Position numbers and translations under genes: made by a program. Positions 17,339 through 34,481 of a stretch of 64,000 bases of DNA are shown piece after piece. How positions within the stretch are numbered: the first letter of the stretch is position 1; each line of letters begins with the position of its first letter. The stretch comes from Alphaproteobacteria bacterium. GTDB taxonomy: Bacteria > Pseudomonadota > Alphaproteobacteria > VGDZ01. The stretch is taken from positions 53,418 through 117,417 of the forward strand of contig VGDZ01000002.1 of NCBI GenBank assembly GCA_016869515.1. The letters run 5' to 3'. The notes under the pieces are model-generated. The model was not told where the DNA came from, searched no databases, and saw only the letters and a program-made list of their open reading frames with translations.

Positions 17339-17414
17339 TCCGCGGTAGCTCAGCTGGTAGAGCAATCGGCTGTTAACCGATCGGTCGTTGGTTCGAGTCC
17401 AACCCGCGGAGCCA
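17339..17414 (+). tRNA. tRNA-Asn(GTT)
   Basis: tccgcgg/ccgcgga acceptor, anticodon loop CTGTTAA, T-arm ttggttcgagtccaa, encoded CCA. Confidence 0.95.
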
Positions 17415-18917
17415 GTTTTCAAAAGCGCGCTCGGAAATGGTTCCGGGCGCGCTTTCTTTTCTGGTCTCGGCGATTGTTTCTGCAAGCATATCAAATGGTT
17501 GCCGGAACCTGGCCACTACCTCGCCATCTTCCCAAGTGCAGTTCGATAGCAGGAAATTGAGCAGACGGCGCTTTTCGCGCGGTTCCTGCTTTGCGAACAG
17601 CCTTTGAGCGTCGCGGGCGACATCGAGAAGCGCAAAGCCTTCGGAAAGATAGGATTTGTCGGCATTCTTGTGCCGTTCTATCTCGCGCTGGCAGCTCGCC
17701 TGTTCCTCGCGCCATTGGCTCGACATTTTCTCGAAGAAGGCCGTATCCACCAACCCGTCGAGCTTATCGACATACATCGCGTGAATGCGGTCGTTCAGGC
17801 GCTTCGCCTCAATCTCCAGCCGCCTGATCGCTTCCTCATGCTCGCGCCGCTCGTCGGCGTGGCTGGCGTGAAGCGCATCGCGAACCCACTCCAGCACCGC
17901 GTCATCGAATCGAAGTTGCCCGAGCATTCCGGTAAACTGCGTTTCGAGCACTTCCTCGCGGACATATCTGCGACGGCAGTCGGCGGGCTTGCCCTGGCAC
18001 TTATCGGCATAGCCGGTGCAATGATAATAGACGTAGCGTTCCTTCTTGATCTCGCCGACCACGGCGCAACCGCAGGCATGGCAGGCGATCAGGCCCGAGA
18101 ACGCGAAATCCCGCCTGCCTTTCTTCGCGCCGCGCGCGTTGCGAGCGTCTATCACGCCCTGCACCCGTTCCCAAAGCTCGGTTGGCACGATCGCCTCGTA
18201 GCGGCCCTGGTATGTCTTGCCGTCCCAATCGAAGCGCCCAGTGTAGATGCGGTTGCGCAGGATCGCGGCGACGGTACTCTTCGGGATGCGCTCGCCGCTC
18301 TTGCGGAACACGAGGCCTGCCGCCCGCGCCTTCTTGGTTACCTCCTGCGTGGACATATCGCCCCACGCATACCATTCGAACATCTTGCGGATGATCGGTG
18401 CGGTCGTCTCATCCGGCACGATGGTCTTGCCCTGCGCCGCCTTCTCGGTCATGCCCTTGCGCGTCTCCTCGGACAGGTTGTCGATGTAGTTCTTCGCCAT
18501 CAGCACCTTGATGCCGTGCATGAACTTTTCCGAGGAGCGCGACTCGCGTGACAGCGCCACGCCTTCCTTGGGGAAATGGATTTCTACATCAAGCTCGTCC
18601 ACCGTCACCCAGTCCTTGAGGTTGCGGTAGAGCCGGTCAGTCTTCTCGACCAGCATGACACGGACCGCCGGATGGGCCCTGAGATAGGCAACCATCTGGC
18701 CGAAGGCAGCCCGGCCCGTCTGCTTGGCGGTCTCCACGTCCACGTATTCCTGCGCCACCGCGAAGCCCTGCGCTGAGGCATATTCCTTCAGCAGCTTCAA
18801 CTGCGCCGGGATCGAGAAGCCTTCCTTCTCCTGCTCCTTTGATGAGACGCGGGCATAGATCACCGCCTGCTTGCGGGCGGGATCGGCAGCGGGTGCGGTA
18901 TTCGATGTCTTGGTCAT
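17373..18917 (-). CDS. Large serine recombinase (resolvase N-terminus + recombinase domain + zinc ribbon)
   Basis: VIYARVSSKEQEKEGFSIPAQL, KTDRLYRNLKDW, zinc ribbon CHACGC...CTGYADKC; terminates inside tRNA-Asn on opposite strand. Confidence 0.93.
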   Translation of the reverse strand: MTKTSNTAPAADPARKQAVIYARVSSKEQEKEGFSIPAQLKLLKEYASAQGFAVAQEYVDVETAKQTGRAAFGQMVAYLRAHPAVRVMLVEKTDRLYRNLKDWVTVDELDVEIHFPKEGVALSRESRSSEKFMHGIKVLMAKNYIDNLSEETRKGMTEKAAQGKTIVPDETTAPIIRKMFEWYAWGDMSTQEVTKKARAAGLVFRKSGERIPKSTVAAILRNRIYTGRFDWDGKTYQGRYEAIVPTELWERVQGVIDARNARGAKKGRRDFAFSGLIACHACGCAVVGEIKKERYVYYHCTGYADKCQGKPADCRRRYVREEVLETQFTGMLGQLRFDDAVLEWVRDALHASHADERREHEEAIRRLEIEAKRLNDRIHAMYVDKLDGLVDTAFFEKMSSQWREEQASCQREIERHKNADKSYLSEGFALLDVARDAQRLFAKQEPREKRRLLNFLLSNCTWEDGEVVARFRQPFDMLAETIAETRKESAPGTISERAFENWLRGLDSNQRPIG

Positions 18918-19059
18918 ATTGTTTAGTGTAAACGGGACAAGGGTGATTTGCAAGCCTCTCGGCATATCATGAAGGTCCTGGGACAAGTCCCACGAACCGC
19001 ACATGCATGCCATGCCCGTGAACCGCCCCAGGATTGCCGGGGCGGTTCAGCTGGCACGC

Positions 19060-19155
19060 ATGCGCAACCCTTACTCGATGGACTTGCGGGAGCGGGTGAA
19101 TAGAGCGGTAGAGATCGAAGGTCTGTCGCGGCATGGAGCATCGCGACGGTTTCCC
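19060..19155 (+). pseudogene. IS630-family transposase N-terminal remnant
   Basis: MRNPYSMDLRERVNRAVEIEGLSRHGASRRF matches the IS630 N-terminal pattern, then the reading frame loses similarity. Confidence 0.7.
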
Positions 19156-19191
19156 GATGATCTGATCCGGGTTATATCCTCGTCTCGCCAT
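19150..19191 (-). pseudogene. IS3-family transposase OrfA N-terminal remnant
   Basis: MARRGYNPDQIIGK is a typical IS3 OrfA start, truncated at the IS630 remnant. Confidence 0.55.
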
Positions 19192-19417
19192 CTCTTGCTC
19201 CTTCTGTCCAGGCAAAATCTCTCAAATCGCCTGGTACAAAAAATGCCGGGCAGGTCAGATATGTCGGTCAAGGGCTTACAGTTGAACGTCTGGTCCTGAC
19301 CCAAAGGCAGACATCGCCCGGAGCTCGTCATATTGCTTTGACGGAGTGCAAGGGATTGAGATAACAAACGAATGAAATTCAAATAGGCCGGGAACGGCTC
19401 ACTGATTCGGAGGGGTT

Positions 19418-19894
19418 TTGCGGCACGTCAGCCTCATTGTTGCGCTCGCGGCGTTCTGGGTCCTGTTGTCTGGCGTCTTCACGCCGTTTTTGCTGGCGGC
19501 GGGTCTGGGCAGCGTGTTCGCGGTCGTCTGGTTCGCCGACCGGCGCATGAAGGTCCTCGATGTCGAGGGCCATCCGTCGCACCTCAGCGTCCGGGCCCTG
19601 ACCTACTGGCCGTGGCTGCTGTGGGAAATCGTCAAATCCGGCTGGGATGTCACCAAGCGCATCCTCCATCCCCGCCTGCCGATTAGCCCGTGTTTGGTCC
19701 GCGTGCCGACTAGCCAGCAGACCAATGTCGGTCGCGTCATCTACGCCAACTCGATCACCCTTACCCCCGGCACGATTTCACTCGAGCTCACGGAAGGCGA
19801 GATTCTCGTCCATGCCCTGACCCGCGAGGGCGCTGAAGGACTTGCCACCGGCGATATGGACCGGCGCGCCACGGCGTTCGAGGCCGCGCTGTGA
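19418..19894 (+). CDS. mrpE: Na+/H+ antiporter subunit E (MrpE/MnhE)
   Basis: LLSGVFTPFLLAAGLGSV...WPWLLWEIVKSGWDVTKRILHP; TTG start inferred; first of a coupled mrp operon. Confidence 0.85.
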   Translation: MRHVSLIVALAAFWVLLSGVFTPFLLAAGLGSVFAVVWFADRRMKVLDVEGHPSHLSVRALTYWPWLLWEIVKSGWDVTKRILHPRLPISPCLVRVPTSQQTNVGRVIYANSITLTPGTISLELTEGEILVHALTREGAEGLATGDMDRRATAFEAAL

Positions 19895-20193
19895 TGTTCG
19901 CTGCAGCGGCGATCGCGCTGGTTGTGGCGCTGGCTCTGACCGTGGCTCGCGCCTTGCTTGGCCCGACGGTGTTCGATCGCGTTCTCGGCGCCAACACGAT
20001 CGGCACGCTGGCCGTCTGCCTGATGGCGGTCTACGGGTTCCTGACTGAGCGTCCCGAATTTCTCGATGTCGCGATCGTCTACGCGTTTCTCAATGTGCTC
20101 AGTACACTCGCCATCCTCAAATTCTTCCGCTTCGGCAGTCTCGGCGATCCGGAGGATGACGAGCCCGCGCCGCGACTTGAGACAAGGCCATGA
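19891..20193 (+). CDS. mrpF: Na+/H+ antiporter subunit F (MrpF)
   Basis: LLGPTVFDRVLGANTIGTLAV...YAFLNVLSTLAILKF. Confidence 0.92.
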   Translation: MMFAAAAIALVVALALTVARALLGPTVFDRVLGANTIGTLAVCLMAVYGFLTERPEFLDVAIVYAFLNVLSTLAILKFFRFGSLGDPEDDEPAPRLETRP

Positions 20194-20519
20194 GTCTGGC
20201 AGCTGATATTCTCGGCTGGGCGTTCATCTTGGCCGGCAGCTTCTTTACGGTAGTCGGCGCATTCGGCCTCATACGCATGCCCGATCTCTATACGCGCCTG
20301 CACGCCTCGGGCGTGCTCGATCCTTTCGGCGTGTCCCTGATCCTGATCGGCCTGATGTTCCAGGCCGGGTTCACGCTGGTGACCGTGAAACTCGCTTTTC
20401 TCGTGCTGCTGCTGCTGTTTACTAGCCCGGTCGCGTGTCATGCGCTGGCACGCGCCGCGCTGCATCGCGAGGTAAAGCCGCTGCTCGACGACGAGAGGAG
20501 CTCATCATCGAAACGCTGA
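20190..20519 (+). CDS. mrpG: Na+/H+ antiporter subunit G (MrpG)
   Basis: AGSFFTVVGAFGLIRMPDLYTRLHASG. Confidence 0.93.
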   Translation: MSLAADILGWAFILAGSFFTVVGAFGLIRMPDLYTRLHASGVLDPFGVSLILIGLMFQAGFTLVTVKLAFLVLLLLFTSPVACHALARAALHREVKPLLDDERSSSSKR

Positions 20520-21058
20520 TTTACAGCACCTTGCTCGTGCTCCTGGTCGTCACAGCGGTGGCGATCGCGCGCGTGCGCAATCTTTTCGCTGTCGTGGTGC
20601 TCGGAGGCATTTACAGCTTTCTCATGGCGCTGGCGCTGCTCGTCCTCGACGCTGTCGACGTCTCGATGACCGAAGCATCGGTGGGGGCCGGCATATCGAC
20701 CGTGCTATTGCTCGGCGCCCTCTACCTGACGCGGATCGACGAGGCAACGCCTCAGCGGAGCTCCACGGCGCCGATGGTTGTAGCAGTGGTGGTCGGCGCG
20801 GCGCTGCTCTATGGCACATGGGACATGCCACCTTTTGGCGATTCTGGCGGGCCCATCCATCAACATATCGCGCCTCGCTACCTTAGTAGCGTGATGGCCG
20901 AGACCGGCGTGCCCAACGTCGTCACCGCCGTACTGGCGAGCTATCGCGGGTACGACACGCTCGGCGAGACTACGGTGATCTTCACCGCCGGCATCGGAGT
21001 TCTGCTGCTGCTCAAGGGACGCCGACGCAAGCGCGACGTCGGGAGCGCTAAGTCATGA
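20501..21058 (+). CDS. MbhD/MbhE-like (DUF4040) antiporter subunit, equivalent to the C-terminal part of MrpA; start uncertain
   Basis: AVAIARVRNLFAVVVLGGIYSFLMALALLVLDAVDVSMTEASVGAGIST; TETTVIFTAGIGVLLLL-type tail. Confidence 0.8.
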   Translation, partial: LIIETLIYSTLLVLLVVTAVAIARVRNLFAVVVLGGIYSFLMALALLVLDAVDVSMTEASVGAGISTVLLLGALYLTRIDEATPQRSSTAPMVVAVVVGAALLYGTWDMPPFGDSGGPIHQHIAPRYLSSVMAETGVPNVVTAVLASYRGYDTLGETTVIFTAGIGVLLLLKGRRRKRDVGSAKS

Positions 21059-21474
21059 TGCATCGCGAGACGATCCCGCGGGTCGTCACCAAGCTCCTGT
21101 TCCCGTACATCCTGCTGTTTGCCTTGTACGTCCAGTTTCACGGCGAGCTCGGACCGGGCGGCGGCTTCCAGGCGGGCGTCATCGTGGCCGCCGCGATCAT
21201 CCTCTACGGGATCATCTTCGGCCTTCAGGCCGCGCACCGGATCGCACCGCCGCGCCTCGTTGAGATCATGATCTCGCTGGGGGTCCTCATCTACGGCGTC
21301 GTCGGGGTCTTCGGGCTTCTCTTCGGCGGCAACTACCTCGACTATTTCGTTCTCGATCCAGACCCCGTGAACGGCCAGGAGCGCGGCATATTCTGGGTGG
21401 AGGCGGGCGTTCTGGTCACGGTATCGTCCACCATGGTCGCGATCTACTACGCGTTTGCCGGGCGGGGGCGCTGA
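21055..21474 (+). CDS. mrpB: Na+/H+ antiporter subunit B (MrpB)
   Basis: LFPYILLFALYVQFHGELGPGGGFQAGVIVAAA. Confidence 0.93.
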   Translation: MMHRETIPRVVTKLLFPYILLFALYVQFHGELGPGGGFQAGVIVAAAIILYGIIFGLQAAHRIAPPRLVEIMISLGVLIYGVVGVFGLLFGGNYLDYFVLDPDPVNGQERGIFWVEAGVLVTVSSTMVAIYYAFAGRGR

Positions 21475-21481
21475 CGCCGGT

Positions 21482-21838
21482 ATGGTCGACGCCATCGCGC
21501 ATTTTAGCAACTGGGCAACCGTCATCCTGATGGTGATTGGCCTCTATGTCGTGCTCGCGCGCGGCAACCTGATTAAAAAGCTGGTCGGCCTCAGCATCTT
21601 CCAGACCTCGGTCTACCTGCACTATATAGGGCCGGGAAAGATCGTTGGCGGCACGGCGCCGATCATCGCCGAGGGCTTCACCGTCTATTCGAACCCGCTG
21701 CCTCATGTCCTTATCCTGACGGCGATCGTCGTCGGTGTGGCGACGCTGGCGCTTGGTCTTGCGCTAGTCGTGCTCATCCACGAAGCCTACGGCACGATCG
21801 AGGAAGACGAGGTCCTGGGTCGTGAGGATGATTCGTGA
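21482..21838 (+). CDS. mrpC: Na+/H+ antiporter subunit C (MrpC, NuoK-like)
   Basis: VGLSIFQTSVYLHYI...DPLPHVLILTAIVVGVA-type motif (NPLPHVLILTAIVVGVATLAL). Confidence 0.93.
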   Translation: MVDAIAHFSNWATVILMVIGLYVVLARGNLIKKLVGLSIFQTSVYLHYIGPGKIVGGTAPIIAEGFTVYSNPLPHVLILTAIVVGVATLALGLALVVLIHEAYGTIEEDEVLGREDDS

Positions 21839-23313
21839 TCGCTGCTCATCTGCCGGCCTTGCAAGTTGTCATTCCGCTGCTCGCTGCGCCGATCTGCGCG
21901 ATGCTGCGTCGTGGATCGCACGCCTGGGCTTGGACGATGGTCGTGAGCTGGGCGATGCCCGTCATCGCGTTCGCGATCCTGCTCCAGGTGCTCGAAGGGG
22001 GCACGATCTCCTACTGGCTCGGCAGCTGGGAGCCGCCCTGGGGCATCGAGTACCGGATCGACACCGTCAACGCCTTTGTGCTCGTGCTGGTCTCGGTGAT
22101 TGGCGCGGTGGTGATGCCTTACGCCCGCGCCAGCCTCGAGCGCGAGATGCCCGCCGACCGGCAGGTCTGGTACTACACAATGTACCTGCTGTGCCTGGCC
22201 GGCCTGCTCGGCATGGCAGCGACCGGCGACGCCTTCAACGTCTTCGTATTTATGGAGATCGCGTCGCTATCGAGCTACGTGCTGATAGCGCTTGGCCGCG
22301 ACCGGCGCGCGCTCGTCGCGGCGTATCAGTACCTCATCGTCGGCACGATCGGAGCCACTTTCTATGTCATCGGCGTTGGCTTCCTCTATGTCATGACTGG
22401 AACGCTGAACATCGCCGATCTCGCCGAGCGCCTGCCGCTGGTTGAGAACCAGCGCCCGGTATTGATCGCTCTTACCTTCCTGATCGTCGGGCTGTCGCTG
22501 AAGCTGGCGCTGTTTCCGCTGCATTTTTGGCTGCCTGGCGCCTATGCCTATGCGCCGTCGGTGGCCACGGCATTTCTCGCGGCATCGGCAACCAAGGTCG
22601 CGATCTATCTGATCCTGCGCTTCTTCTTCACCGTGTTCGGTGGATCCTATCCGTTGGCCGGTCTCGGCGTTCCTTTGGTCTGGATTGCGCTCTCGCTTGC
22701 GGCGATTGTGCTACCGTCGATCACGGCGATCTACGAGAAGGACGTCAAGCGCATGCTAGCGCTCTCGAGCGTCGCCCAGATCGGCTACATCACACTCGGT
22801 ATCGGTCTCCTCTCGGAGGCCGGGCTCACCGGCTCGATCGTCCATCTGCTCAATCACGGCCTGATGAAGGGCGCACTGTTCCTGCTGGTCGGTGGTATCG
22901 CCTATTCAAAAGGCGCGGTGACAGTGGACCGGATCGCCGGCATGGCGCGGCGCATGCCCCTGACCTTCGCAGGGTTTGTGGTCGCGGGGCTCAGCATGGT
23001 CGGCGTTCCGGGCACTGTGGGTTTCGTCAGCAAATGGTATCTCGTGCTGGCCGCCATCGAGCGCGGTTGGTGGTGGCTCGCCATACTAGTCGTCGCCAGT
23101 TCCGTGCTCTCCCTCGTCTACATGGGCCGCTTGGTGGAGGCCTCATATTTCCGGCCCTCTGCTCCAGATAGCACCGACGACCAGGAGATGCCGCGGTCGA
23201 TGCTTGCGTCCGCTTGGGTGCTGGTCGCGGCGTGCGTCTATTTCGGCCTCGACACCGATCTCACAGTACGAGTGGCGGCACAGGCCGCGCGTACCCTGCT
23301 GGGGACGCCATGA
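21835..23313 (+). CDS. mrpD: Na+/H+ antiporter subunit D (MrpD, NuoM/N-like)
   Basis: FVFMEIASLSSYVLIALGRDRRAL, LFPLHFWLPGAYAYAPS, KDVKRMLALSSVAQIGYI. Confidence 0.93.
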   Translation: MIAAHLPALQVVIPLLAAPICAMLRRGSHAWAWTMVVSWAMPVIAFAILLQVLEGGTISYWLGSWEPPWGIEYRIDTVNAFVLVLVSVIGAVVMPYARASLEREMPADRQVWYYTMYLLCLAGLLGMAATGDAFNVFVFMEIASLSSYVLIALGRDRRALVAAYQYLIVGTIGATFYVIGVGFLYVMTGTLNIADLAERLPLVENQRPVLIALTFLIVGLSLKLALFPLHFWLPGAYAYAPSVATAFLAASATKVAIYLILRFFFTVFGGSYPLAGLGVPLVWIALSLAAIVLPSITAIYEKDVKRMLALSSVAQIGYITLGIGLLSEAGLTGSIVHLLNHGLMKGALFLLVGGIAYSKGAVTVDRIAGMARRMPLTFAGFVVAGLSMVGVPGTVGFVSKWYLVLAAIERGWWWLAILVVASSVLSLVYMGRLVEASYFRPSAPDSTDDQEMPRSMLASAWVLVAACVYFGLDTDLTVRVAAQAARTLLGTP

Positions 23314-24776
23314 GCGGCGTCACAACGTTGCTTCTGGCGATGGCGGTGCCGCTGGCCGGTGCGTTGCTGATCGCCCTGTCGCATGGCCGGCCGAACCAGC
23401 GTGAGGCGGTGACCCTCGTCACCGCTGGGGTCATGTTTGGCCTTGTCGCTTCGCTGGTGCCCGAAGTGCTGGCTGGCGGCCGGCCGGCCACCCAGCCATG
23501 GTCCATCCTGCCCGGGCTGGAGCTGCGGTTTACGCTCGAGCCGCTTGGCATGCTATTCGCGCTCGTCGCCTCATCCCTGTGGATCGTCAATTCGATGTAT
23601 TCCATCGGCTACATGCGCAGTAATGACGAGCCGCGACAGACCTCTTTCTACGTGTTCTTTGCCGTCGCCCTGGCGGCGACGCTCGGCATTGCCTTCGCCG
23701 GCAATTTGTTCACGCTGTTCCTGTTCTACGAGCTGCTGACGCTCTCGACCTATCCGCTGGTCGTCCACAAACAGAATGCCGAGGCCCTGCGCGCCGGCCG
23801 CACCTATCTGCTGCTGCTCATCGGCAGCTCTATCGTCTTCTTCCTTCCGGCCATAGTCTGGGTGTCCTGGACGGCCGGCACCACGACGTTTACGCTAGGC
23901 GGGGTCGTCTCCGACGTGATGACGCCCGACGAAACCGGCTGGCTTCTTGCGTTATTTGCCATTGGCATCGGCAAGGCCGCGATCATGCCGATGCATCGCT
24001 GGCTGCCGGTGGCCATGGTGGCCCCCACCCCGGTCAGCGCCCTTCTGCACGCGGTCGCGGTCGTGAAGGCCGGCGTGTTCAGCATCGTCAAGATCACGGT
24101 CTACGTCATCGGCGTTGAGAATCTAGCGCGCGTCGGCAGCGGGGATTGGTTGCTCTATGTCGCGGGCACGACGGTTATCGTTGCGTCGCTGATCGCGCTC
24201 ACCCAGGACAATCTCAAGCGCCGTCTCGCCTACTCGACCGTCAGCCAGCTCTCTTACGTCGTCCTGGCCGCGGCAATTCTCACGCCGACTTCGGTCATTG
24301 CAGCTGCGCTTCATATCGCCGCGCATGCCTTCGGCAAAATCACGTTGTTCTTTGCCGCCGGGTCAATCTACACCGCAGCGCATAAGACTGAGGTAAGCGA
24401 GCTGGACGGCATCGGACGGCGCATGCCGTGGACCATGGGTGCCTTCGCCGTCGGTGCCTTGAGCATGGTTGGCGTGCCTCCGGCAGCCGGCTTCACCAGC
24501 AAATGGTACCTGGCCAGCGCAGCGCTCGCCGCCGGTCAGCACTTTGCGCTGGCGGTCATCGTCCTGAGCACGTTGCTCAACGCCGCCTATTTCGTGCCAA
24601 TCGTCTATGCCGCATTCCTTAAGCCCGAGCCGGCGAGCGGCCACGGCCATGCTCATGGCGAGGCGCCATGGCCGATGGTTCTCGCTCTGGTAACCACCGC
24701 CGCCGGAACTATGCTGCTCTTTCTGGTGCCCAACCTGCCGCTCGCCCTGGCGCGGCAACTGGCGGGACTGTCATGA
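23310..24776 (+). CDS. Proton-conducting antiporter subunit (NuoL/MrpA-N/MrpD-like), second copy
   Basis: FLFYELLTLSTYPLVVHKQ, MPMHRWLPVAMVAPTPVSALLHAVAVVKAGVFS, DNLKRRLAYSTVSQLSYV. Confidence 0.9.
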   Translation: MSGVTTLLLAMAVPLAGALLIALSHGRPNQREAVTLVTAGVMFGLVASLVPEVLAGGRPATQPWSILPGLELRFTLEPLGMLFALVASSLWIVNSMYSIGYMRSNDEPRQTSFYVFFAVALAATLGIAFAGNLFTLFLFYELLTLSTYPLVVHKQNAEALRAGRTYLLLLIGSSIVFFLPAIVWVSWTAGTTTFTLGGVVSDVMTPDETGWLLALFAIGIGKAAIMPMHRWLPVAMVAPTPVSALLHAVAVVKAGVFSIVKITVYVIGVENLARVGSGDWLLYVAGTTVIVASLIALTQDNLKRRLAYSTVSQLSYVVLAAAILTPTSVIAAALHIAAHAFGKITLFFAAGSIYTAAHKTEVSELDGIGRRMPWTMGAFAVGALSMVGVPPAAGFTSKWYLASAALAAGQHFALAVIVLSTLLNAAYFVPIVYAAFLKPEPASGHGHAHGEAPWPMVLALVTTAAGTMLLFLVPNLPLALARQLAGLS

Positions 24777-25012
24777 GCTCCTTGCACCCCTTCACCGTGC
24801 GCACCGCCCTTATCCTGTGCGTCGTCTGTTTCGTCATCCTGGCGCTCACGGTAATTGCCGAGTTTTTCATTTACCGCCACGGTCAGTTCGGCATCGACGA
24901 GAGTTTCTGCTTCAACGCCTGGTACGGCTTTGTTGCCTGCGTCGCTCTGGTGGCCGTGTCGCGGCTGATCGGCTTGGTCCTGAAGCGGCCGGATACCTAC
25001 TATGACCGCTAG
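24773..25012 (+). CDS. Small two-TM membrane protein embedded in the mrp operon
   Basis: 79 aa, ATGA overlap with upstream gene and overlap with downstream gene; two hydrophobic segments. Confidence 0.8.
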   Translation: MSSLHPFTVRTALILCVVCFVILALTVIAEFFIYRHGQFGIDESFCFNAWYGFVACVALVAVSRLIGLVLKRPDTYYDR

Positions 25013-26687
25013 CATTCTCCTCCCGCCGGCACTTCCGTTGTTTCTCGGCGCGGCACTCCTGACCATCGCGCGCGGACGCCTGCGGGCGGCGGTGATGCTT
25101 CTTGCGCCCCTCGTAGCGCTGGCGATGGTCTGGCTGGTTCCCGATACGAACGCTGGAATTACGGGTTTCCTTGGCTACGATCTCATCATCGTGCGCGGCG
25201 ACCGGCTTAGCCGCTGGTTCGGTACCGTCTTTGCCATTATGGCCTTCGCCGGCGGACTGTTCGCGCTCAACCAGGAGAGCCGACTCGAAGCGGTTGCCGC
25301 GCAGGTCTACGCCGGCGGCGCGCTGGGCGTCGTTTTTGCCGGCGATCTGCTGACCACTTTCGTGTTCTGGGAGATCATGGCGCTCGCCTCGACCGTCGTC
25401 GTGTGGAGTGCCGGCGGAGCGTCGCGGGCCGCGGGTTTTCGGTATCTCCTGATTCACCTGCTTGGTGGCGTGCTACTGATGATCGGTTCGGCTGGCGAAG
25501 CTCAGGCGACCGGCAGCCTGGCCTTCAACGTCATGGCGCCCGACACAGCGGCGCGCTGGCTGATCCTTGCCGGCTTCCTGATCAATGCCGGTGCGCCACC
25601 TCTTTCGGCCTGGATACCCGACGCCTATCCGCAATCGTCGTACAGCGGCATGGTCGTTCTCTCCGCCTTCACTACCAAGACCGCAGTCTACGTCCTGCTG
25701 CGCGGCTTCCCTGGCGCCGAAGTCCTGATCTGGGTTGGGCTCTACATGGTGTTTTACGGGATCGTCTACGCGATTCTCGAGAATGACATGCGTCGCATCC
25801 TCGCTTACAGCATCGTCAATCAGGTCGGCTTCATGGTTGCCGGCATCGGAATTGGCACCGAGCTCGCGCTGAATGGCGCCGCGTCGCACGCCTTTGCACA
25901 CATCGTTTATAAGGCGCTGCTGCTGATGTCTGCCGGGTCTGTCCTCTATATGACCGGTAAGTCAAAATGCACCGAGCTCGGTGGCCTGTTCCGCAGCATG
26001 CCGCTGACCGCGATCTCCGGAATCGTCGGAGCGCTGGCGATCTCTGCTTTCCCGCTCACCTCGGGCTTCGTCACCAAGTCGATGATCAGTGACGCGGCCG
26101 GGCAGGAGAGGCTGATGCTCGTGTGGTTCCTGCTGGCGGCTGGCTCGGCCGGAGTCTTCCTGCACGCCGGTATCAAGTTCCCCTGGTTCGTCTTTTTCCA
26201 GCGCGATTCCGGACTGCGCCCGTCTGACCCACCGGTGAACATGCGCGCGGCGATGCTCCTCTTCTCGTTTCTCTGCATCCTCCTGGGTGTTGCGCCGGGC
26301 GTGCTTTACCGCTGGCTGCCGTTCGGTGCGTCGTACGAGCCGTACACCGCGGATCATGTGGTGACCCAGCTGCAGCTCCTGCTGTTCTCCGGCCTCGCTT
26401 TTTTCATGCTGCTCGGGCTCCTGAGGCGGACCCCGACGGTCACGCTCGATTTCGACTGGCTCTATCGGCGCGCCGGCGTCGCACTGGCTAGTGGTGTGAC
26501 CCGCGCAGCGCATGTCGCCTGGCGCAACTTCGCGGCCGGTATGCGTGGCATGGTCGACGAAATCCTGTCTGGTATTTCTATCCTGGCCCGCCGAGGAATC
26601 CTGGCGCGCGCACAGGACAGCGGTACGATGGCCATGGTCGCGGTCGCTATGCTCGCGGTCTACCTGGTGGTGGAATTCGTGCGGTGA
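25002..26687 (+). CDS. Na+/H+ antiporter subunit D-like (NuoM/N-like), third copy
   Basis: FVFWEIMALASTVVVW, PPLSAWIPDAYPQSSYSGMVVLSAFTTKTAVY, NDMRRILAYSIVNQVGFM. Confidence 0.9.
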   Translation: MTASILLPPALPLFLGAALLTIARGRLRAAVMLLAPLVALAMVWLVPDTNAGITGFLGYDLIIVRGDRLSRWFGTVFAIMAFAGGLFALNQESRLEAVAAQVYAGGALGVVFAGDLLTTFVFWEIMALASTVVVWSAGGASRAAGFRYLLIHLLGGVLLMIGSAGEAQATGSLAFNVMAPDTAARWLILAGFLINAGAPPLSAWIPDAYPQSSYSGMVVLSAFTTKTAVYVLLRGFPGAEVLIWVGLYMVFYGIVYAILENDMRRILAYSIVNQVGFMVAGIGIGTELALNGAASHAFAHIVYKALLLMSAGSVLYMTGKSKCTELGGLFRSMPLTAISGIVGALAISAFPLTSGFVTKSMISDAAGQERLMLVWFLLAAGSAGVFLHAGIKFPWFVFFQRDSGLRPSDPPVNMRAAMLLFSFLCILLGVAPGVLYRWLPFGASYEPYTADHVVTQLQLLLFSGLAFFMLLGLLRRTPTVTLDFDWLYRRAGVALASGVTRAAHVAWRNFAAGMRGMVDEILSGISILARRGILARAQDSGTMAMVAVAMLAVYLVVEFVR

Positions 26688-26702
26688 TGCGCGACAGCGC
26701 GG

Positions 26703-26954
26703 CTATTGAAGGAGCCGCCCGAGCCAATAAACAGGCCATATAAACGAGAGAAACAGAGCCTCGAATACTAAATCGGTCAGACTAGACCCATCGCCGACCG
26801 CCCTCGCTTGCCCTTTGACGAGGTAGGCGTAGGTCATCGCATTACCCAGGGCATAGGCAACGAGCAATTGGTATCTATAGCGGTTCCACAGCCGCTTCAC
26901 ATGGTCGCGCTCGACATTCCGGTCGTCAGAATCTTGAGGTTGGAGATTGCTCAC
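26703..26954 (-). CDS. Hypothetical small membrane protein
   Basis: 83 aa, two hydrophobic stretches, convergent with the mrp operon. Confidence 0.5.
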   Translation of the reverse strand: MSNLQPQDSDDRNVERDHVKRLWNRYRYQLLVAYALGNAMTYAYLVKGQARAVGDGSSLTDLVFEALFLSFIWPVYWLGRLLQ

Positions 26955-27034
26955 GGCGGTGAATTTATAGCCTCTTCAAGCGGCGTCGGATATATTTTTT
27001 GCCTTACTCGCGCTGCTCTATTCAAGGAGGTAAA

Positions 27035-27286: not shown

Positions 27287-27395
27287 TCGAGATACAAGCG
27301 AAGTTGGGCGGAAACGAGGTTCCGGCGCAGTTCGCTCCAGGGACACGACCCATACGCCCTGAGAAACCCATTGCGATCGGCTTTTGCCAAACGGA

Positions 27396-28205
27396 TCAGC
27401 CGGGAACGGCGCCGGCCCGCAGGTCCTTGAGGCGCAGCAGCATGGTCAGCATGCGTTCGAGCTTACGGTCGAGATGCACCTCATAGCGGCCCAGCCGCTG
27501 CAGCTTGTCGGGGTCGAGCGACTCGCCGAACGCCTGCTCGCGGATCAGCGGGCGGTTGGCGAGTTCCTTCTTGCGCCCATCAAACCACGGCATCACCGTC
27601 CCTTCGAGGAAGCGGCGCAGGCCGGCCTCATCGGGCGTGGCCGGCTCCTCGCCCTCGTCCAGGTCTTCGGGATCGCGGGCCAGCATGTCCGCCCACCAGT
27701 CCCGCGTATCCCCGCGTAGAGCGGCCAGCGCGGAATCGTAGCGGTCGTTTCGGCACGAGCCGAGCAGGTCGAGCGCCCGGCGCGTCATGGCTTCGCCCTC
27801 GTCCATTTCGCGGATGTCGTCCTTGATGTCCCCAGCCGTGGTGTGGATCGCATCGACCACGCGCTCGGACTGGTCGGTGGCATCCAGATGCACCAGCGCT
27901 GATTTGACCGTCTCGCGGTAAGGCTCCAGCGCATCCTTCAGCCCGCGCCGATGCGCGGCGGCTTCGGCCAGGCGTAGCCGGCGTTTGCGCCACAGGATGC
28001 CTGCCAGTTCCTCGACCAGATGCTCCTCGGTCGGTCCCTGCGGCGCGTGCTCGGCCGCGAGTGCTGCGACCAGCGCGCGATATTCGTCGGCGTCTTCCCA
28101 GGGCAGGACGGTGTAGCGCGACAGCACGCCGTGGCGCAGCGCGTTGAAGCGGGTGATCTCGGTGCCGCCGGTCTCGGCCGGTAGATCGGGCTTGGTCTCG
28201 GTCAT
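27396..28205 (-). CDS. Hypothetical island-type protein
   Basis: 269 aa, RFNALRHGVLSRYTVLPWEDADEYRALVAALAAEHAP...EEHLVEELAGILWRKRRLRLAEAAA; GATG-coupled to upstream gene. Confidence 0.7.
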   Translation of the reverse strand: MTETKPDLPAETGGTEITRFNALRHGVLSRYTVLPWEDADEYRALVAALAAEHAPQGPTEEHLVEELAGILWRKRRLRLAEAAAHRRGLKDALEPYRETVKSALVHLDATDQSERVVDAIHTTAGDIKDDIREMDEGEAMTRRALDLLGSCRNDRYDSALAALRGDTRDWWADMLARDPEDLDEGEEPATPDEAGLRRFLEGTVMPWFDGRKKELANRPLIREQAFGESLDPDKLQRLGRYEVHLDRKLERMLTMLLRLKDLRAGAVPG

Positions 28206-28861
28206 CGCCAGAATCTCCTTCTTCGTTTCGGGTTGTCGATCCGCGCCAGCAGGCGTTCAGCCTGAAGCGCAAAGGCCTCGTCGGCGCGCATCTCGTCTTC
28301 GAAGGCGCGTTCGCGCAGGCGGTCGTAGGTCCGCCGCCACATGCCCTTGGGCTTGGGCGGAAAGGGCGAGGCCATGCCGGGATCGCCGCCCAGGCGTTGC
28401 TTGATCTTGTCGGCCCGACGCAGCATGCGATCCCATGTGCCTTCGCCTTGGCTGGCGTGTGCGAGGCGATAGCAATGCCGGCACAGGAAATAGCGCCCCG
28501 GCCCGTGCAGCTTGGCCACGCGCCGCCCGCAGGCGATGCCGTTCACCACGCCCGGACAGATGAAATACGGCCGCGCCCCGCCCAAGCGGCAGGCGACGCG
28601 GACGATGCGGACGGTCTCGGCCACGTCCTCCCACTCCGCGCCGCCGACGCGCACGCGGTAGGTGAGATGCAGCCGGTCTTCCTCCGCGCGCAGGTTGATC
28701 GAGGCAACCTTCTCGCCGTCGCGCGTCCATTGCCAGCTGCCCACCCAGCCGGCGCGCAGGCAGCCCGTCTTGTGCACCCGGTTCACGTCGATCGAGCGGC
28801 AGGCCTCTACCGTGCCGCGTCCCGATCCGCTTGGCCGTCCCGATCCGAAGCCGCCCATCAT
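28202..28861 (-). CDS. Hypothetical zinc-ribbon-like protein
   Basis: 219 aa; GFGSGR start, ARPYFICPG...CGRRVAKLHGPGRYFLCRHCYRLAHAS Cys pairs. Confidence 0.7.
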   Translation of the reverse strand: MMGGFGSGRPSGSGRGTVEACRSIDVNRVHKTGCLRAGWVGSWQWTRDGEKVASINLRAEEDRLHLTYRVRVGGAEWEDVAETVRIVRVACRLGGARPYFICPGVVNGIACGRRVAKLHGPGRYFLCRHCYRLAHASQGEGTWDRMLRRADKIKQRLGGDPGMASPFPPKPKGMWRRTYDRLRERAFEDEMRADEAFALQAERLLARIDNPKRRRRFWR

Positions 28862-29406
28862 GCGCCCCCGTTTTTTCCGAAATCGTCAGGCAACTTGGCC
28901 GGCCCTTTGATGCCCATGGCCTTGAGAGCTTCGACCGCTTCGGCCTTCCGGCCCGCGTGCCAGGCGGGCCAGCAGCGCGAATGCAGCCAGACATGGCCGG
29001 TCGGCTCGGTGCCGTGCGGCAGCAGCACGTCGTGGGCATGATCGCCGCCACCGCAGGCGCGGCAGCGCCCGGGCGGCGAGCGCTCGAAGCTGAGGTTCAT
29101 CCATTCTACGACGCAGCATTCAAACGCCCGGGCCTCGGCATCCGGGCGCGGCAGACCGCCGTCGAACTCGGCGACGCCGGCGCGCTCGTCGAAATGCGCC
29201 TGCCAGTCCTCGGCAGACCAGCCGTCCCGGCCTGGCCGCAGCAGGTCGATGATCTCCTGTTTGTTGCTGGCAAGAGCGTCGAGGATTTCCGGTGGCGGTG
29301 GCGCGTGGGCTTGCAGGACAAGGCCATCGCCATCGACCCTTAGATCGAGGCCGGCGGCCCGTGCCGTCCGCAGGATTGCTGTGGCGCTCACAGCCGCGCA
29401 CTCCAC
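28858..29406 (-). CDS. Hypothetical protein with TubC_N docking-like N-terminus and Cys/His-rich C-terminus
   Basis: ILRTARAAGLDLRVDGDGLVLQAHAPPPPEILDALASNKQEIIDLLRP; CRACGGGDHAHD...HSRCWPAW. Confidence 0.65.
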   Translation of the reverse strand: MECAAVSATAILRTARAAGLDLRVDGDGLVLQAHAPPPPEILDALASNKQEIIDLLRPGRDGWSAEDWQAHFDERAGVAEFDGGLPRPDAEARAFECCVVEWMNLSFERSPPGRCRACGGGDHAHDVLLPHGTEPTGHVWLHSRCWPAWHAGRKAEAVEALKAMGIKGPAKLPDDFGKNGGA

Positions 29407-31343
29407 CCGGTTTTTGCGGGCGCGGATTGGGGCTGGTCCTTTGTGTCCGCACCGTCCGCAGCGGTCCCATCCTTGGATTTCAACGGTTTTGCGCGGACGG
29501 TCTGGACCGCCGCGTTCGGCCGACCGTCTGCGTCGTTGGCGACCGTCCGCAGGTTGGGTGCCGCGGAGCCGTTGACCGGCTTGGATTTCGACCTTAGCGC
29601 GGACGATGCGGACGGCACGGACGGTTGCGCCCCGTCCCGTTCCGGCGCCGGATCGGCGGATGCTGCGGTGATGCGGATGACCCGGGTTCGCGCCCGGCCC
29701 TCGCGCTCGAAGGCGATTTCGATGCCGATCTTGCGCAGGAAGGTCGCCGCCCGGCGCAAGCGCCCTGCCAAGGCGCGCGGGCTGTCGGGCCAGGTCTTGG
29801 CCTTAGCCACGCGCTCGCCCGCCATCTCCCCAAGGGCGCCCAGAAGTTCCGAGGCGGTTCCCGTCCACTCGGTCCTCTCCGCCATCACGGCGCGCACGGT
29901 GGCGGCGATCGGGTCAGCCTCGATGACGCCCTCGACGGCCTCGTCGCGGGTGCCGCAATAGGCAGCCCCGAACGTGCCGGCTGGCCAGAGCGCGGTCTCG
30001 CAGGCGGTCACCCACAGTGCGAAGTCGGCCATGCGCGGGAGCCTCGGCAGGTGGGTGTCGGGCAGACGCTTCAGGCCCTCGACCACGGCGTCGAGCAGCA
30101 CGCCCAAGATGCGCGGACGCTCGGCCTCGAACGCTGCCCAGAGTTCCGCCTCGGGCCGGCGGCGCTCCTCTGGGATCGGCTCCAGCGTCAGGAACACGGC
30201 GCGGTCGGCGAGGTCGGGCCGCGTGACGATGTCTTCGATGCCGTTCAGGATCACCGGGCGGGCGGCGTCGAACAGCACCTCGTCCTGGTCGGTGTAGAGC
30301 TGGCGCACGGCGAACCCGCCGCCGGTGGCCAGCCGGCAGAGCGTATCGGAAATCCACGCCGGCAGGCCCGACACGTTGTCGAAGGCCAGCACATGGCCGT
30401 TGCTGGCGCCGACGAACAGGTCGCGGTCCTCGCGCGGCAGGGCACGCAGCGGCGCGGTGTTGGGATCGAGCAGCGCGCGCAGGATCGCCGAGAAGGTGGA
30501 CTTGGCCGATCCCTGCTCGCCCGACAGCACGAGCACCGGATAGGGTCCGCGATTGCGCAGGCATGCTAGCGCCCAGGCGACCACCAGCACGAAGTCGGCA
30601 TTGGACTGGACGTTGAGGAATGAGCGCATCGCAGCAATCGAGCCGCCCGGCGCCGGGATCGCCAGAGGCTTCATGCCGGATGCGCGGCGGAAGCGCACCG
30701 GCGGATTGTCGATTACCCGCCAGCCGGTGGCGTCGATCTCGACCGCCCGCCACGCCTTGTCGCCGACATCGACGTAGAGCTTGCCGTCCAGCCCGCCAAC
30801 GCGGATATGCACGATCCGCTCCGGTGCGTCGAAATGCGCCTTGGCCTCGATCACACTCAGGGCGGATTGCAGCGCTTCCGAACTCGGCGCGCCTTGCGTC
30901 GCCTCGAAGAAGCGGCGCGCCAGCCAACGGCGGAAGCCCTTGGCGCGAATCGGCCAGGTCTCGCGGTGGCCGTTAATGTCGAGATCGGCGAAGCCGGTCC
31001 CGTCGGGCGCGTGAAATAGTTCGGCGGTCTGCGCGAGGTCGATGAGGATGTCGGCCTGCGTCGGCCCGCGCCCAGCATCGCCGTTTTCCTCGGCGATGGC
31101 CTCGTCGAGCGCAGTCACCCGGCAGCCGGCCCTCTTCAACTGCGAGCGCAGCAACTCGAAGGCGGCGCGATTTTCCGTCTTCAGCGCGGCGAGGCGCTCC
31201 AGCACCTCCGGCGTAAACGCGGCGCCTGGATCGGTCGCGGTTTTCTCGACCAGCCCATCGAGCGGATCGGCGATGTCCTCGGCCGCGTCGATGGCGTCGG
31301 CGATCGGGTTCGCGCCGATCTCGATTTCGGGTTCCCCGTTCAT
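29388..31343 (-). CDS. ATP-dependent DNA helicase/primase-associated protein (P-loop, mobile-element replication type)
   Basis: VLVLSGEQGSAKSTFSAILRALLDPN Walker A, LAFDNVSGLPAWISDTLCRLATGGGFAVRQLYTD; 651 aa. Confidence 0.75.
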   Translation of the reverse strand: MNGEPEIEIGANPIADAIDAAEDIADPLDGLVEKTATDPGAAFTPEVLERLAALKTENRAAFELLRSQLKRAGCRVTALDEAIAEENGDAGRGPTQADILIDLAQTAELFHAPDGTGFADLDINGHRETWPIRAKGFRRWLARRFFEATQGAPSSEALQSALSVIEAKAHFDAPERIVHIRVGGLDGKLYVDVGDKAWRAVEIDATGWRVIDNPPVRFRRASGMKPLAIPAPGGSIAAMRSFLNVQSNADFVLVVAWALACLRNRGPYPVLVLSGEQGSAKSTFSAILRALLDPNTAPLRALPREDRDLFVGASNGHVLAFDNVSGLPAWISDTLCRLATGGGFAVRQLYTDQDEVLFDAARPVILNGIEDIVTRPDLADRAVFLTLEPIPEERRRPEAELWAAFEAERPRILGVLLDAVVEGLKRLPDTHLPRLPRMADFALWVTACETALWPAGTFGAAYCGTRDEAVEGVIEADPIAATVRAVMAERTEWTGTASELLGALGEMAGERVAKAKTWPDSPRALAGRLRRAATFLRKIGIEIAFEREGRARTRVIRITAASADPAPERDGAQPSVPSASSALRSKSKPVNGSAAPNLRTVANDADGRPNAAVQTVRAKPLKSKDGTAADGADTKDQPQSAPAKTGWSARL

Positions 31344-32233
31344 TACGCGCCCTCCTCGATGTGGGGCGCTCGGCCCGGCAGTATGTCGTTGAAGTCCATG
31401 CCTTGCGGCGGGCGGGCGATGCGCACGCGCCGGCCCTGGCGCTTCCAGCGAATGGCGCAAACCCGTGCCGCCTCCTCGCCGGCCTCGTCGCCATCAGCCA
31501 GCACGATCACGTCGCGCACGCTCGTCGGCAGGTCGAGGCTGCGCAGCCCAGAAGTCGAAAGCGCCGCCCAGGCGGGTTTGCCACTCGCCTGCATGGCGGC
31601 AAGGCACGTTTCGATGCCTTCACCGACCATTAGAACCTCGCCTGGATCGGCGAGACGTACCGCCCCGCCCCGGCACGGGCCAAGCATCATTTTCTCCGGA
31701 TCGACGGGCGCTTTCCCGCCGCCGTCGAGCGCGAGGAAGGTGCGATGGACAGCGACGGGCGTTCCGTCGACGCCGTTCGTTACCAGCGCCACCATTGCCG
31801 GCCAGAAGCCGCCCGACGGATGCTTAAGAGCGGGATGGAAGCGCAGCGCGTCGGAAGGCGGCAGGTGCAGTTGGCGCGATACAAAATAGGTCGCGACCGG
31901 CGTCTCCGGCGAAGGCCTCGACGAGTGCCAGATGGCCAGAGCCCTCTCCGTGCGCCTGGCGTCATCGCCATCCGGTTCGTGCTCGACCGGCTTGCGACGC
32001 TGGGTCCACGCCGAAGAGCGTGCGCGGCTTTCGCTCCAAAGCCCGCGCCCGCGCAGCGCAGCGATAACGCGCTCCTGTTCGCAGCCGGCGTGGCAGCGCA
32101 CGAGCACCTTGCCATCTCGCGTATCGGTCAACGAAAGGCTGGGCATGCGGTCATCATGGGCCGGGCATCGCGCCGTCCAGCCGCCGCCGGCCTTGCGCCC
32201 ACCCAGGGCATTGGCGATGGCTTCAGCGGTCAT
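31343..32233 (-). CDS. Toprim domain-containing primase-like protein
   Basis: CPAHDDRMPSLSLTDT...CHAGCEQERVIAAL zinc ribbon; EVLMVGEGIETCLAA and VIVLADGDEAGEEAA toprim motifs. Confidence 0.88.
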   Translation of the reverse strand: MTAEAIANALGGRKAGGGWTARCPAHDDRMPSLSLTDTRDGKVLVRCHAGCEQERVIAALRGRGLWSESRARSSAWTQRRKPVEHEPDGDDARRTERALAIWHSSRPSPETPVATYFVSRQLHLPPSDALRFHPALKHPSGGFWPAMVALVTNGVDGTPVAVHRTFLALDGGGKAPVDPEKMMLGPCRGGAVRLADPGEVLMVGEGIETCLAAMQASGKPAWAALSTSGLRSLDLPTSVRDVIVLADGDEAGEEAARVCAIRWKRQGRRVRIARPPQGMDFNDILPGRAPHIEEGA

Positions 32234-32528
32234 GGCGTGCCTCCCCGTTCCCGGAGGCGTCGTGTGTGCCGATGTCGTTCGCCTGCGACGGCAATTCGGC
32301 CCGCGACCATTCGGCCAGCACGGAGAAGAAGCCGGTCATGTTCTCCGCGATCTGCCTTGCGTCCTCGCGGCTGAGATCGCGGCCGAGGCGCGGCTGCCAG
32401 ACCTCCCGGGCGCGCCGGATCAGGTCATCCTTCAGATTGTCGTTCGTTGCGTGCGACGGTTTCACCGAAGACCTCACGGGCGGTTCCTCGCCGCTCCGTG
32501 CTCCTGGCCTCCGGCCTCGGAATCCCAC
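32223..32528 (-). CDS. Hypothetical island protein
   Basis: DDLIRRAREVWQPRLGRDLSREDARQIAENMTGFFSVLAEW; overlaps next gene. Confidence 0.55.
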   Translation of the reverse strand: MGFRGRRPGARSGEEPPVRSSVKPSHATNDNLKDDLIRRAREVWQPRLGRDLSREDARQIAENMTGFFSVLAEWSRAELPSQANDIGTHDASGNGEARHDR

Positions 32529-32600
32529 CGATGACGCTGGACCTACGTGATTTGAATCTCGGGTGTCCCCATCGCAGGGATCGCCGTTATTGGCGCCGCG

Positions 32601-32819
32601 TCAGCGCGGCAGTTCGTCCTCGGGGATGTGGAACTTGTGCGACTTGCCTGCGCGGATCACGAGTTGGCGCTTGCCTCCATTCGTAATCTCGCAGACGATG
32701 GAACAATCGAAGAAGCCGTGGCTCAGTCCGTCCGTCAGGACCTTCTCGATGTGGCGCAACGCCTCGCCGAACTGGCCGCGACGCCCGGCAACGGGCGCGG
32801 ATGCGGGAACGTCACGCAT
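32601..32819 (-). CDS. Hypothetical small protein
   Basis: 72 aa, collinear and overlapping with upstream DUF5659-like gene. Confidence 0.5.
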   Translation of the reverse strand: MRDVPASAPVAGRRGQFGEALRHIEKVLTDGLSHGFFDCSIVCEITNGGKRQLVIRAGKSHKFHIPEDELPR

Positions 32820-33078
32820 TGTGTAGCAGCGCCTTCATGTCTTTGATGGTTGCGGAGAACGCCAGCGGCGGGACCATCGCACCCTGGCCGTAGAATGCCA
32901 GCACGTCCTCGCGGCGGGTGGGACGGTCGCGGAAGACGAAGACCTTTCGCCGGCCTTCGGCGCGCAGATCGAGGAGGTCGTAGCCCGTGCGGCGCAGGAA
33001 GCAGGCCAGATAAAAGTCGCGCGTCTCGAACGCGGTATCACCGCTCGACTTCCGGATATCGGCTCGTTCAGTTGACAC
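32812..33078 (-). CDS. DUF5659-like small protein
   Basis: FETRDFYLACFLRRTGYDLLDLRAEGRRKVFVFRD; GTG start preceded by GAGGAGG. Confidence 0.65.
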   Translation of the reverse strand: MSTERADIRKSSGDTAFETRDFYLACFLRRTGYDLLDLRAEGRRKVFVFRDRPTRREDVLAFYGQGAMVPPLAFSATIKDMKALLHNA

Positions 33079-33103
33079 TTAACATCCTCCTCAAAAAAAA
33101 GAG

Positions 33104-33877
33104 TCAGCGTGCGGACTGAAACCATAGCTGGCGCGGGACATCCCGGTGCAACAGACCAATCCGCTCCAGCCGAATGCGCATCGAGACCATCGAAACCTGA
33201 AACTTCTCGGCAAACGGCCGCACAAACTCGTTGAGCGCCTCATTGTAGCGCTGTTGATCGTAGGACCGGAGGGCGGACGCAATCTCGTCTCCTACGTTTC
33301 CCGGCAAGGTCAGGCGGCTATTACGTTTTAAGATACGGGCGTTGTTGTCGCCAAAACGCTCCCGCCAAGCCTCGATCAGGAGGTCTTTGGGCATCAGCAG
33401 GCACGACGCGTAGGCGTCGGCCTGCCACTCCACTCGGTCCTTGGCCTGGCTGGAACGGCAGATGACGGCGGGAGGCGTCGGCCCAACGAACAAGGCGATC
33501 TGCGCCGGGTCTTTGACGAACAGGTGGCGATGCAAGCGCCAATGCCCACCGCCCTCGTGAGCCAGCGTGAACCGATATCGCCCCTCTTTGAATGAGTTCT
33601 CTTCAGGGTCGAGACTTTGGTCGATCACGATCCGGCGATCATCGAAGAATATCGCGCCGAGAATGTCGGCATCTCCTTCCGGATCGCGCGGCACACCGAA
33701 CAGTCGGTGGGTATCGTCGAACTCGATGCCGAGTCTCAGGTGCTTTTCGACGATATCCTCAATGGGGACCGGCGGTTGGATGCCAGCGCCACGTTTCTGC
33801 GCAAACTCGCCCAGCAGCGACGCCGCATCTCGCTCGATCTGTTCCTCGGAAAGGAAGGGTACCAACTTCGCCATCAC
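33104..33877 (-). CDS. ImmA/IrrE family metallo-endopeptidase
   Basis: RYRFTLAHEGGGHWRLHRH zinc motif, EWQADAYASCLLMPKDLL. Confidence 0.9.
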   Translation of the reverse strand: MMAKLVPFLSEEQIERDAASLLGEFAQKRGAGIQPPVPIEDIVEKHLRLGIEFDDTHRLFGVPRDPEGDADILGAIFFDDRRIVIDQSLDPEENSFKEGRYRFTLAHEGGGHWRLHRHLFVKDPAQIALFVGPTPPAVICRSSQAKDRVEWQADAYASCLLMPKDLLIEAWRERFGDNNARILKRNSRLTLPGNVGDEIASALRSYDQQRYNEALNEFVRPFAEKFQVSMVSMRIRLERIGLLHRDVPRQLWFQSAR

Positions 33878-33922
33878 GCCGTCATCCTTATCTGCATCGT
33901 TGAAGTCTTGGTTTTCCGGCTG

Positions 33923-34276
33923 TCAGTCGTCCTTCGCCTTTTGCGCCTGCCGGGCCAACTGGGCGATATCGTCGGCGGTGAGGCCCTTGGTCGTGCGCAG
34001 GAGCGCCGCCAGCTCGACCGGATGGCGCTTGATGATGTCGGTGATATCGGTCGATACGCGCCCGGCCCGCGCCAGCAGGTCGTCGGTATCGCACCCGATG
34101 ATCTTGGCGATCGCCCGGACCTTGTCCTCGGCCGGCGGAGGGAACTCGTCCCGCTCGACCTTCGACAGGTAGGTGGGGCTGACCCCGATCATCTTCGCCA
34201 TCTCGCGCAATCCGATCTCCTTGCCTTCGCGTTCGCGGCGGATGAATGCCCCGAACTTCTCCCTCGCACCGGTCAT
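33923..34276 (-). CDS. XRE-family transcriptional regulator (ImmR-like)
   Basis: GLREMAKMIGVSPTYLSKVERDEFPPPAEDKVRAIAKIIGCD HTH. Confidence 0.92.
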   Translation of the reverse strand: MTGAREKFGAFIRREREGKEIGLREMAKMIGVSPTYLSKVERDEFPPPAEDKVRAIAKIIGCDTDDLLARAGRVSTDITDIIKRHPVELAALLRTTKGLTADDIAQLARQAQKAKDD

Positions 34277-34304
34277 CGCTCCTCACTCTCGACTCTCGTC
34301 TTCT

Positions 34305-34358
34305 GTTTAGGTGTCAATTTACAGTCGATTCGCGCCGACTGTCAACTTTCCGCTAAAC
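34305..34358. promoter_or_regulatory. 54-bp imperfect dyad upstream of XRE regulator (candidate operator)
   Basis: gtttag...acagtcg attcgcgc cgactgt...ctaaac; both arm pairs share the same centre (34331.5). Confidence 0.55.
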
Positions 34359-34481
34359 ACTTGCCGCCGGGACGGTCAGGCCGCCAGCCGCAACTCGCGG
34401 ATTTCCTCAAGGACCCGCCGAAATTCAAGTTTCGGCGCAAGGCACATGGTTCGATATCGGGCTATAAAGGGGAGCCACTCC

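Follow-up and report, generated by a model that had tools for sequence, protein, structure and literature searches.

Large serine integrases are widely used as DNA-engineering tools, with separate directionality factors normally deciding in which direction they react; the integrases of the Myxococcus phages Mx8 and Mx9 are tyrosine integrases. In phage BPs and its relatives the attachment site attP lies in the repressor gene, and an ssrA-like tag is lost on integration (PMC9262239, PMC9934374). Integration of phage Mx8 changes the C-terminus encoded by int, with altered specificity (PMC6070905). The 64,000-nucleotide stretch of contig VGDZ01000002.1 analysed here (referred to as the window), from an Alphaproteobacteria bacterium, contains an integrative element of 17,070 bp (positions 17408-34477) with a large serine integrase, whose attP lies inside the integrase gene itself. 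The reading that we favour, and in which we place a little better than even confidence, is that insertion gives the integrase a different C-terminal tail, that an SsrA-like degron stays behind at attR, and that the stability of the enzyme, and perhaps the direction of its reaction, depends on which state the DNA is in.

The element is bordered on both sides by the 7-bp core GGAGCCA, and the positions of the two core copies (Table 1) give its length and its exact right border. The target, tRNA-Asn(gtt), was found as a single full copy within the assembly. An earlier note on this DNA had proposed an integrative element with these borders and a serine recombinase abutting tRNA-Asn: the end that it gave, 34477, coincides exactly with the final base of the attR core, and the integrase open reading frame (ORF) indeed terminates inside the tRNA gene on the antisense strand. 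The direct att repeat and the integrase at one end, as in an integrative genomic island at a tRNA gene, are both present. The short core was identified through comparison of relatives; a generic repeat search did not distinguish the att sites from numerous chance repeats, and a longer tRNA 3' end used as query matched only the tRNA itself. The borders are not due to chance, because the same ends recur in many relatives and because five natural empty sites are available for one of them.

When the ends of the element are joined in silico, the integrase frame runs across the core into the tail on the xre side, which places attP inside the integrase gene. In the window, 31 further residues follow the WL pair, ending in ENWLPFIARYRTMCLAPKLEFRRVLEEIRELRLAA before the stop codon, while the conserved tail has 33 residues, and an in-frame tail of equal length is found in 13 elements. 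Across these 13 elements, the pN/pS ratio of the tail is 0.32 in the integrase frame versus 1.08 and 2.36 when either of the other frames is read, and changes are dominated by third codon positions (886, versus 380 and 210 at the other two). The ratio is 0.34 for the codons located 40-99 bp from the core, a constraint that would lie beyond the reach expected of integrase DNA contacts. A conserved ATG within this stretch, from which 23 amino acids (MCLAPEPDFRR...LAA) can be read, would also fit an independent small gene whose frame matches that of the integrase incidentally. However, codons 2-10, between the core and this ATG, are constrained equally in the integrase frame (pN/pS 0.33), the frame is kept in 13/13 analysed elements, and a natural junction reads through: in a Beijerinckiaceae locus (L122), two elements lie in tandem and their junction encodes the predicted full C-terminus, KTEI followed directly by WLPFLNAYRTMCLVPDPDFRLVLEEMRDARLAA and a stop. 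We consider a separate small gene very improbable.

Because attP lies inside the integrase gene, integration swaps the C-terminus of the enzyme. Integrated integrases at tRNA sites carry 2-18 residues past the shared WL; these residues are encoded by the antisense strand of the tRNA gene and are followed by a stop (for example RGLDSNQRPIG, GD and GDLDSNQD); in the window the last 11 residues, RGLDSNQRPIG, have this origin, which also accounts for the "GLDSNQRP"-like ends of the family integrases. Comparison shows that integration trades the conserved tail for a short predicted tail derived from the host.

The endings of the free-form tails, mostly -LAA or -IAA, point to what may be lost in this exchange. 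An AA ending is found in 14 of the 20 undecayed tails, and in 12 tails a hydrophobic residue precedes the AA; the background among ORFs of at least 150 amino acids in the same loci is 9/454 (2.0%) for AA and 0.9% for hydrophobic-AA. A C-terminal LAA is the end of SsrA tags recognised by ClpX, and the tmRNA of the window host, which was missed by ARAGORN and located by Rfam, has a tag that reads ...ANDNDLALAA from its sequence. The likeness of the -LAA/-IAA endings to the host SsrA tag suggests that integration probably removes a ClpXP-type degron from the integrase. Alternatively, the tail could act not as a degron but as a domain for directionality or partner binding, with the full-length integrase performing attP x attB recombination and the re-tailed form favouring excision or an altered site preference. 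Conservation extends over the full length of the 33-residue tail, beyond the last three residues, and the specificity of the Mx8 integrase shifts upon exchange of its C-terminus (PMC6070905); on the other hand, the enrichment of -LAA/-IAA over background and the match to the host SsrA tag speak for a degron, with which a second role is still compatible. In place of a degron such a domain appears unlikely to us, but the strongest competing idea is that the tail acts directly on directionality, which would be compatible with a degron role.

With the tail acting as an SsrA-like degron (or as a directionality domain), the element would behave as follows. The integrase would insert the circular form into the 3' end of tRNA-Asn or tRNA-Gln, leaving the tRNA intact. 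The free-form integrase would be short-lived, allowing the circle to persist and replicate before reinsertion, whereas the integrated copy would encode a stable enzyme, held off by repression until induction; the DNA rearrangement itself would thus set the switch between unstable and stable integrase. An XRE repressor and an ImmA protease would control the element. In 15/16 elements the integrase start codon is immediately preceded by an 18-bp dyad, GTTTAG-N6-CTAAAC, and the 532,680 bp searched across family loci contain only 10 matches to this motif, each at the integrase gene; the xre promoter lies between inverted half-sites of the motif. We infer from XRE/ImmA pairs of other systems that XRE would bind the dyad at the integrase promoter and the matching half-sites at its own promoter, and that ImmA would relieve this repression.

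The copy in the window departs from this scheme. Its integrase, 88% identical to that of Nitrobacter sp. Nb-311A, has an in-frame 57-bp deletion near 18428/18429 that removes 19 conserved residues, FWPSNAPLGYRNVTREDGR (the WPSxAPLGYR region), whose equivalent is present in all relatives read there except a frameshifted one, and the spacing of the left half-site of its operator is lost. As the integrase lacks these residues and the operator is altered, this copy has probably lost its mobility, unless an assembly error accounts for the 57-bp deletion.

Related elements were collected by scanning GTDB contigs with the helicase of the element, which resulted in 57 loci. At least 15 alphaproteobacterial loci are co-linear, in the order xre, immA, DUF5659, two small ORFs, primase, helicase and a TubC-like gene; after this core comes a variable segment and then the serine integrase, mostly 65-90% identical to the Nb-311A integrase. 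Carriers in culture include Nitrobacter sp. Nb-311A and Nitrobacter vulgaris. Past the TubC-like gene, one subtype encodes the GSGR protein and a 269-amino-acid protein (window, L027, L032, L040, L048 and L054), and a second one an alternative protein of 225 amino acids (L026, L029, L033 and others). The 3' end of the integrase gene abuts the tRNA antisense strand at TGGCT, the tRNA being Asn for the window, L029 and L126 and Gln for most others. TGGCT is repeated upstream of xre at the other end of the relatives' elements, and in most cases the bases that follow fit the target class, TGGCTCC going with Asn and TGGCTG with Gln. In the case of the Mesorhizobium wenxiniae element, the joined flanks align unbroken to five other Mesorhizobium genomes with 81-96% identity, which by this alignment represent its natural empty site. 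The helicase is present in 11/385 genomes sampled in the class (approximately 3%), and detached tails, some of them decayed, were likewise found in 11/385.

These features are best explained as a whole, and with good confidence, by a family of integrative elements of Alphaproteobacteria of roughly 14-18 kb, which is widespread and apparently undescribed in the literature searched; the set of recombinase and replication genes with other cargo, for which the earlier note had proposed to look elsewhere, co-occurs in many genomes, an outcome in favour of the mobile element proposed there. The deletion in the window integrase and its altered operator would also suit a fixed genomic island or a defective prophage remnant that is inherited vertically. 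The patchy distribution, the empty sites, the tandem copies and the variable cargo contradict this for the family, for which we regard it as extremely improbable, so that it could hold for the window copy only. Several individual copies are rearranged: the integrase gene of the M. wenxiniae copy (L055/L099/L130) is disrupted by internal inversions of short segments, and in Enterovirga rhinocerotis (L039) the core is rearranged, with the xre-immA end inverted relative to primase and helicase. Outside the window, the host genome contains a decayed second copy of the integrase tail (G000:C19:13438-13521, L177), which suggests an earlier element of the family.

The replicative helicase yielded a structural model of mean pLDDT 78, whose fold matches those of SaPI5 (7ola), SCCmec Cch (5dgk), NrS-1 and others with modest TM-scores; a helicase profile compared with the sequences of solved structures gave nothing significant. 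Homologues of the helicase are located on plasmids, namely an 18-kb Methylobacterium record, a circular Methylobacterium plasmid of 20 kb and a circular Methanothrix plasmid of 12 kb. These homologues support plasmid-like replication; the replication module looks autonomous, and its primase and D5/SF3-type helicase probably enable the excised circle to replicate in this way. Plasmids searched with the integrase at 1e-60 yielded no match, and hence no free plasmid form. A phage satellite, packaged by a helper phage rather than kept as a plasmid, is possible though rather doubtful. Such a satellite would agree with the resemblance of the helicase fold to SaPI5, with the primase-helicase-TubC module in a prophage, and with related integrases (57-59% identity) in viral contigs at tRNA-Gln; it is countered by the helicase homologues on small plasmids, and genes for a terminase small subunit, capsid size or packaging interference were not recognised in the element. 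The viral contigs concerned (L187, L188 and L189, from IMG/VR) carry family-related integrases whose ends likewise run into the antisense strand of the tRNA, but a search of these contigs for a matching attR tail found none.

Several observations weigh against the proposed cycle of a replicating circle and a tail-controlled integrase. The endings of 6/20 tails lack the AA pair (LTA, FAV, FEA, RGN and others), and the tail counts are not independent, because the tails share descent. No tRNA was found at the integrase ends of L035 and L049, and free circles were not observed. The 44-kb prophage L131 (IMG/VR) combines the same primase-helicase-TubC set with a terminase small subunit. The empty site is that of a family member, the nearest of the genomes compared sharing only the class of the window host, and tail-dependent turnover, XRE binding and excision are putative. 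Prophage L131 additionally carries a QueC-like gene and two ParB-methyltransferase fusions.

The features of the window element are listed in Table 1. The earlier note had recognised an XRE and ImmA/IrrE pair, a toprim primase and a helicase-like gene, as well as an Mrp operon as cargo on the opposite strand, and had seen no conjugation or virion genes. Pfam agrees for the first three, the fold search for the helicase and NCBIfam for a complete Mrp operon; relaxase, coupling protein, terminase, portal and capsid were not found among the ORFs scanned in the element, and neither were other prophage structural or packaging genes. Based on G+C content by segment, the element is a mosaic: 0.61-0.64 for the integrase and Mrp part, 0.67-0.70 for the replication genes and 0.59 for the XRE/ImmA end, with flanks mostly at 0.66-0.72. 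The small ORF at 32601-32819 is, speculatively, a candidate directionality factor. An IS630-like remnant suspected at 19003-19299 was rejected for lack of Pfam support. Elsewhere in the window, positions 44740-46167 encode a probably multi-pass membrane protein of 475 amino acids in a region of lower G+C content (0.59 at 45-46 kb).

Table 1. Features of the integrative element and its target site in the window.
Feature	Positions	Strand	Evidence or remark
tRNA-Asn(gtt), target gene, intact after insertion	17339..17414	+	ARAGORN, own-genome search
attL core GGAGCCA (TGGCTCC on integrase strand), tRNA 3' end	17408..17414	+	
Large serine integrase, integrated form	17373..18917	-	PF00239, PF07508, PF13408; PHROG integrase family 5.5e-68
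Altered copy of the integrase operator	18921..18933	not assigned	compared with relatives' GTTTAG-N6-CTAAAC
Mrp-type multisubunit cation/proton antiporter operon (cargo)	19418..26687	+	NCBIfam
Small ORF, no family	26703..26954	-	
269-amino-acid core-type protein, no family	27396..28205	-	present in a subset of relatives
GSGR-rich protein with paired Cys motifs, no family	28202..28861	-	in a subset of relatives
TubC_N-like docking-domain protein, conserved core	28858..29406	-	weak Pfam match
Replicative helicase, P-loop, D5/SF3-like fold	29388..31340	-	fold search (SaPI5 primase-helicase, SCCmec Cch)
Toprim primase (DUF7146 + Toprim_3)	31343..32233	-	Pfam
Small ORF, conserved core	32223..32528	-	
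Small ORF, conserved core	32601..32819	-	
DUF5659 protein, conserved core	32812..33078	-	Pfam
ImmA/IrrE-type metalloprotease (PF06114)	33104..33877	-	Pfam
XRE-family repressor	33923..34276	-	Pfam
xre promoter region, inverted half-sites GTTTAG (34305) and CTAAAC (34353)	34305..34358		
Detached 3' end of integrase gene, WLPFIARYRTMCLAPKLEFRRVLEEIRELRLAA and stop	34376..34477	-	in frame with integrase in circular form
attR core GGAGCCA, upstream of XRE gene	34471..34477	+	

The slot between the core and the integrase gene would carry cargo of benefit to the host, usually restriction-modification (RM) genes and here the Mrp operon. Type I RM systems occupy it in 12 of approximately 18 resolved elements. 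Between elements, HsdR and HsdM are 78-94% identical and HsdS is only 36-55% identical (about 80-94% and 38-55%, respectively, for the cargo of L026, L027, L028, L030, L033, L035 and L037); the restriction system therefore travels with the element, and it is mainly the specificity that diversifies. Other cargo comprises a type III RM system (L029), Hma (L042 and L054), a sensor kinase with HD-type response regulators (L048), and a P-type ATPase with a type III remnant (L059); an ISP enzyme adjoins a more distant relative (L044). Since the slot usually holds RM genes, the Mrp operon (gene order E, F, G, DUF4040/B, B, C, D, D, small ORF, D, with three D-type subunits) is atypical cargo. It was seen in the window element only and is the sole Mrp operon found in the assembly, where other Mrp matches show about 30% identity and may instead represent complex I; no counterpart of the Mrp-flanking regions was found in relatives. 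A salt or pH benefit from this cargo is plausible. The Mrp cargo is a minor novelty, the main new point being the exchanged tail of the serine integrase.

The earlier note had drawn a comparison with ICEBs1 (ImmR/ImmA). The pair of XRE and ImmA-type protease is indeed shared, but the element has no recognised conjugation genes, a serine rather than a tyrosine integrase and other replication genes, and its closest resemblances are to the staphylococcal cassette chromosome (SCC) and to integration-dependent phage switches; as a whole, the earlier interpretation is partly supported. SaPI-type satellites have in common with the element a D5/SF3-like replicative helicase, a small size and exchangeable cargo, but the element differs by its serine integrase and by the lack of recognised packaging or interference genes. 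SCC elements insert at rlmH and include restriction-modification among their cargo. Like SCC and SCCmec, the element combines a large serine recombinase and a Cch-type helicase fold with a single chromosomal target and variable cargo; it differs in its tRNA-Asn or tRNA-Gln target, its toprim primase and its XRE/ImmA pair, and the window integrase scores 68 bits against the CcrB model, far below the cut-off of 900, which places it outside the Ccr group. In a literature search covering few subscription papers, no serine integrase was found with attP inside its gene or with a tag removed by integration. The phage switches are closer in this respect. As in BPs-type immunity, a regulatory gene contains attP, a C-terminal ssrA-like (-LAA) tag is lost when the element integrates at a tRNA gene, and the 3' remnant of the split gene is left at the opposite att site; in that system, however, the repressor is split, and the tyrosine integrase has a tag of its own that integration leaves in place, whereas here the serine integrase gene is split, xre is intact and the element is non-phage. 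The int genes of Mx8 and Mx9 likewise contain attP within the coding sequence and receive a new C-terminus on integration, but these are phages, and an ssrA-like tag is not described in the accessible part of the source (PMC6070905). Sitting at tRNA genes with cargo that can be swapped, the family seems to serve Alphaproteobacteria as a vehicle for restriction-modification and other defence systems, and if our reading is true, the C-terminus of its integrase, and probably the lifetime of the enzyme, is rewritten by its own reaction, a new form of natural control. The known precedents are a phage repressor (BPs) and a phage integrase (Mx8), next to which the case of a serine integrase appears to be new.

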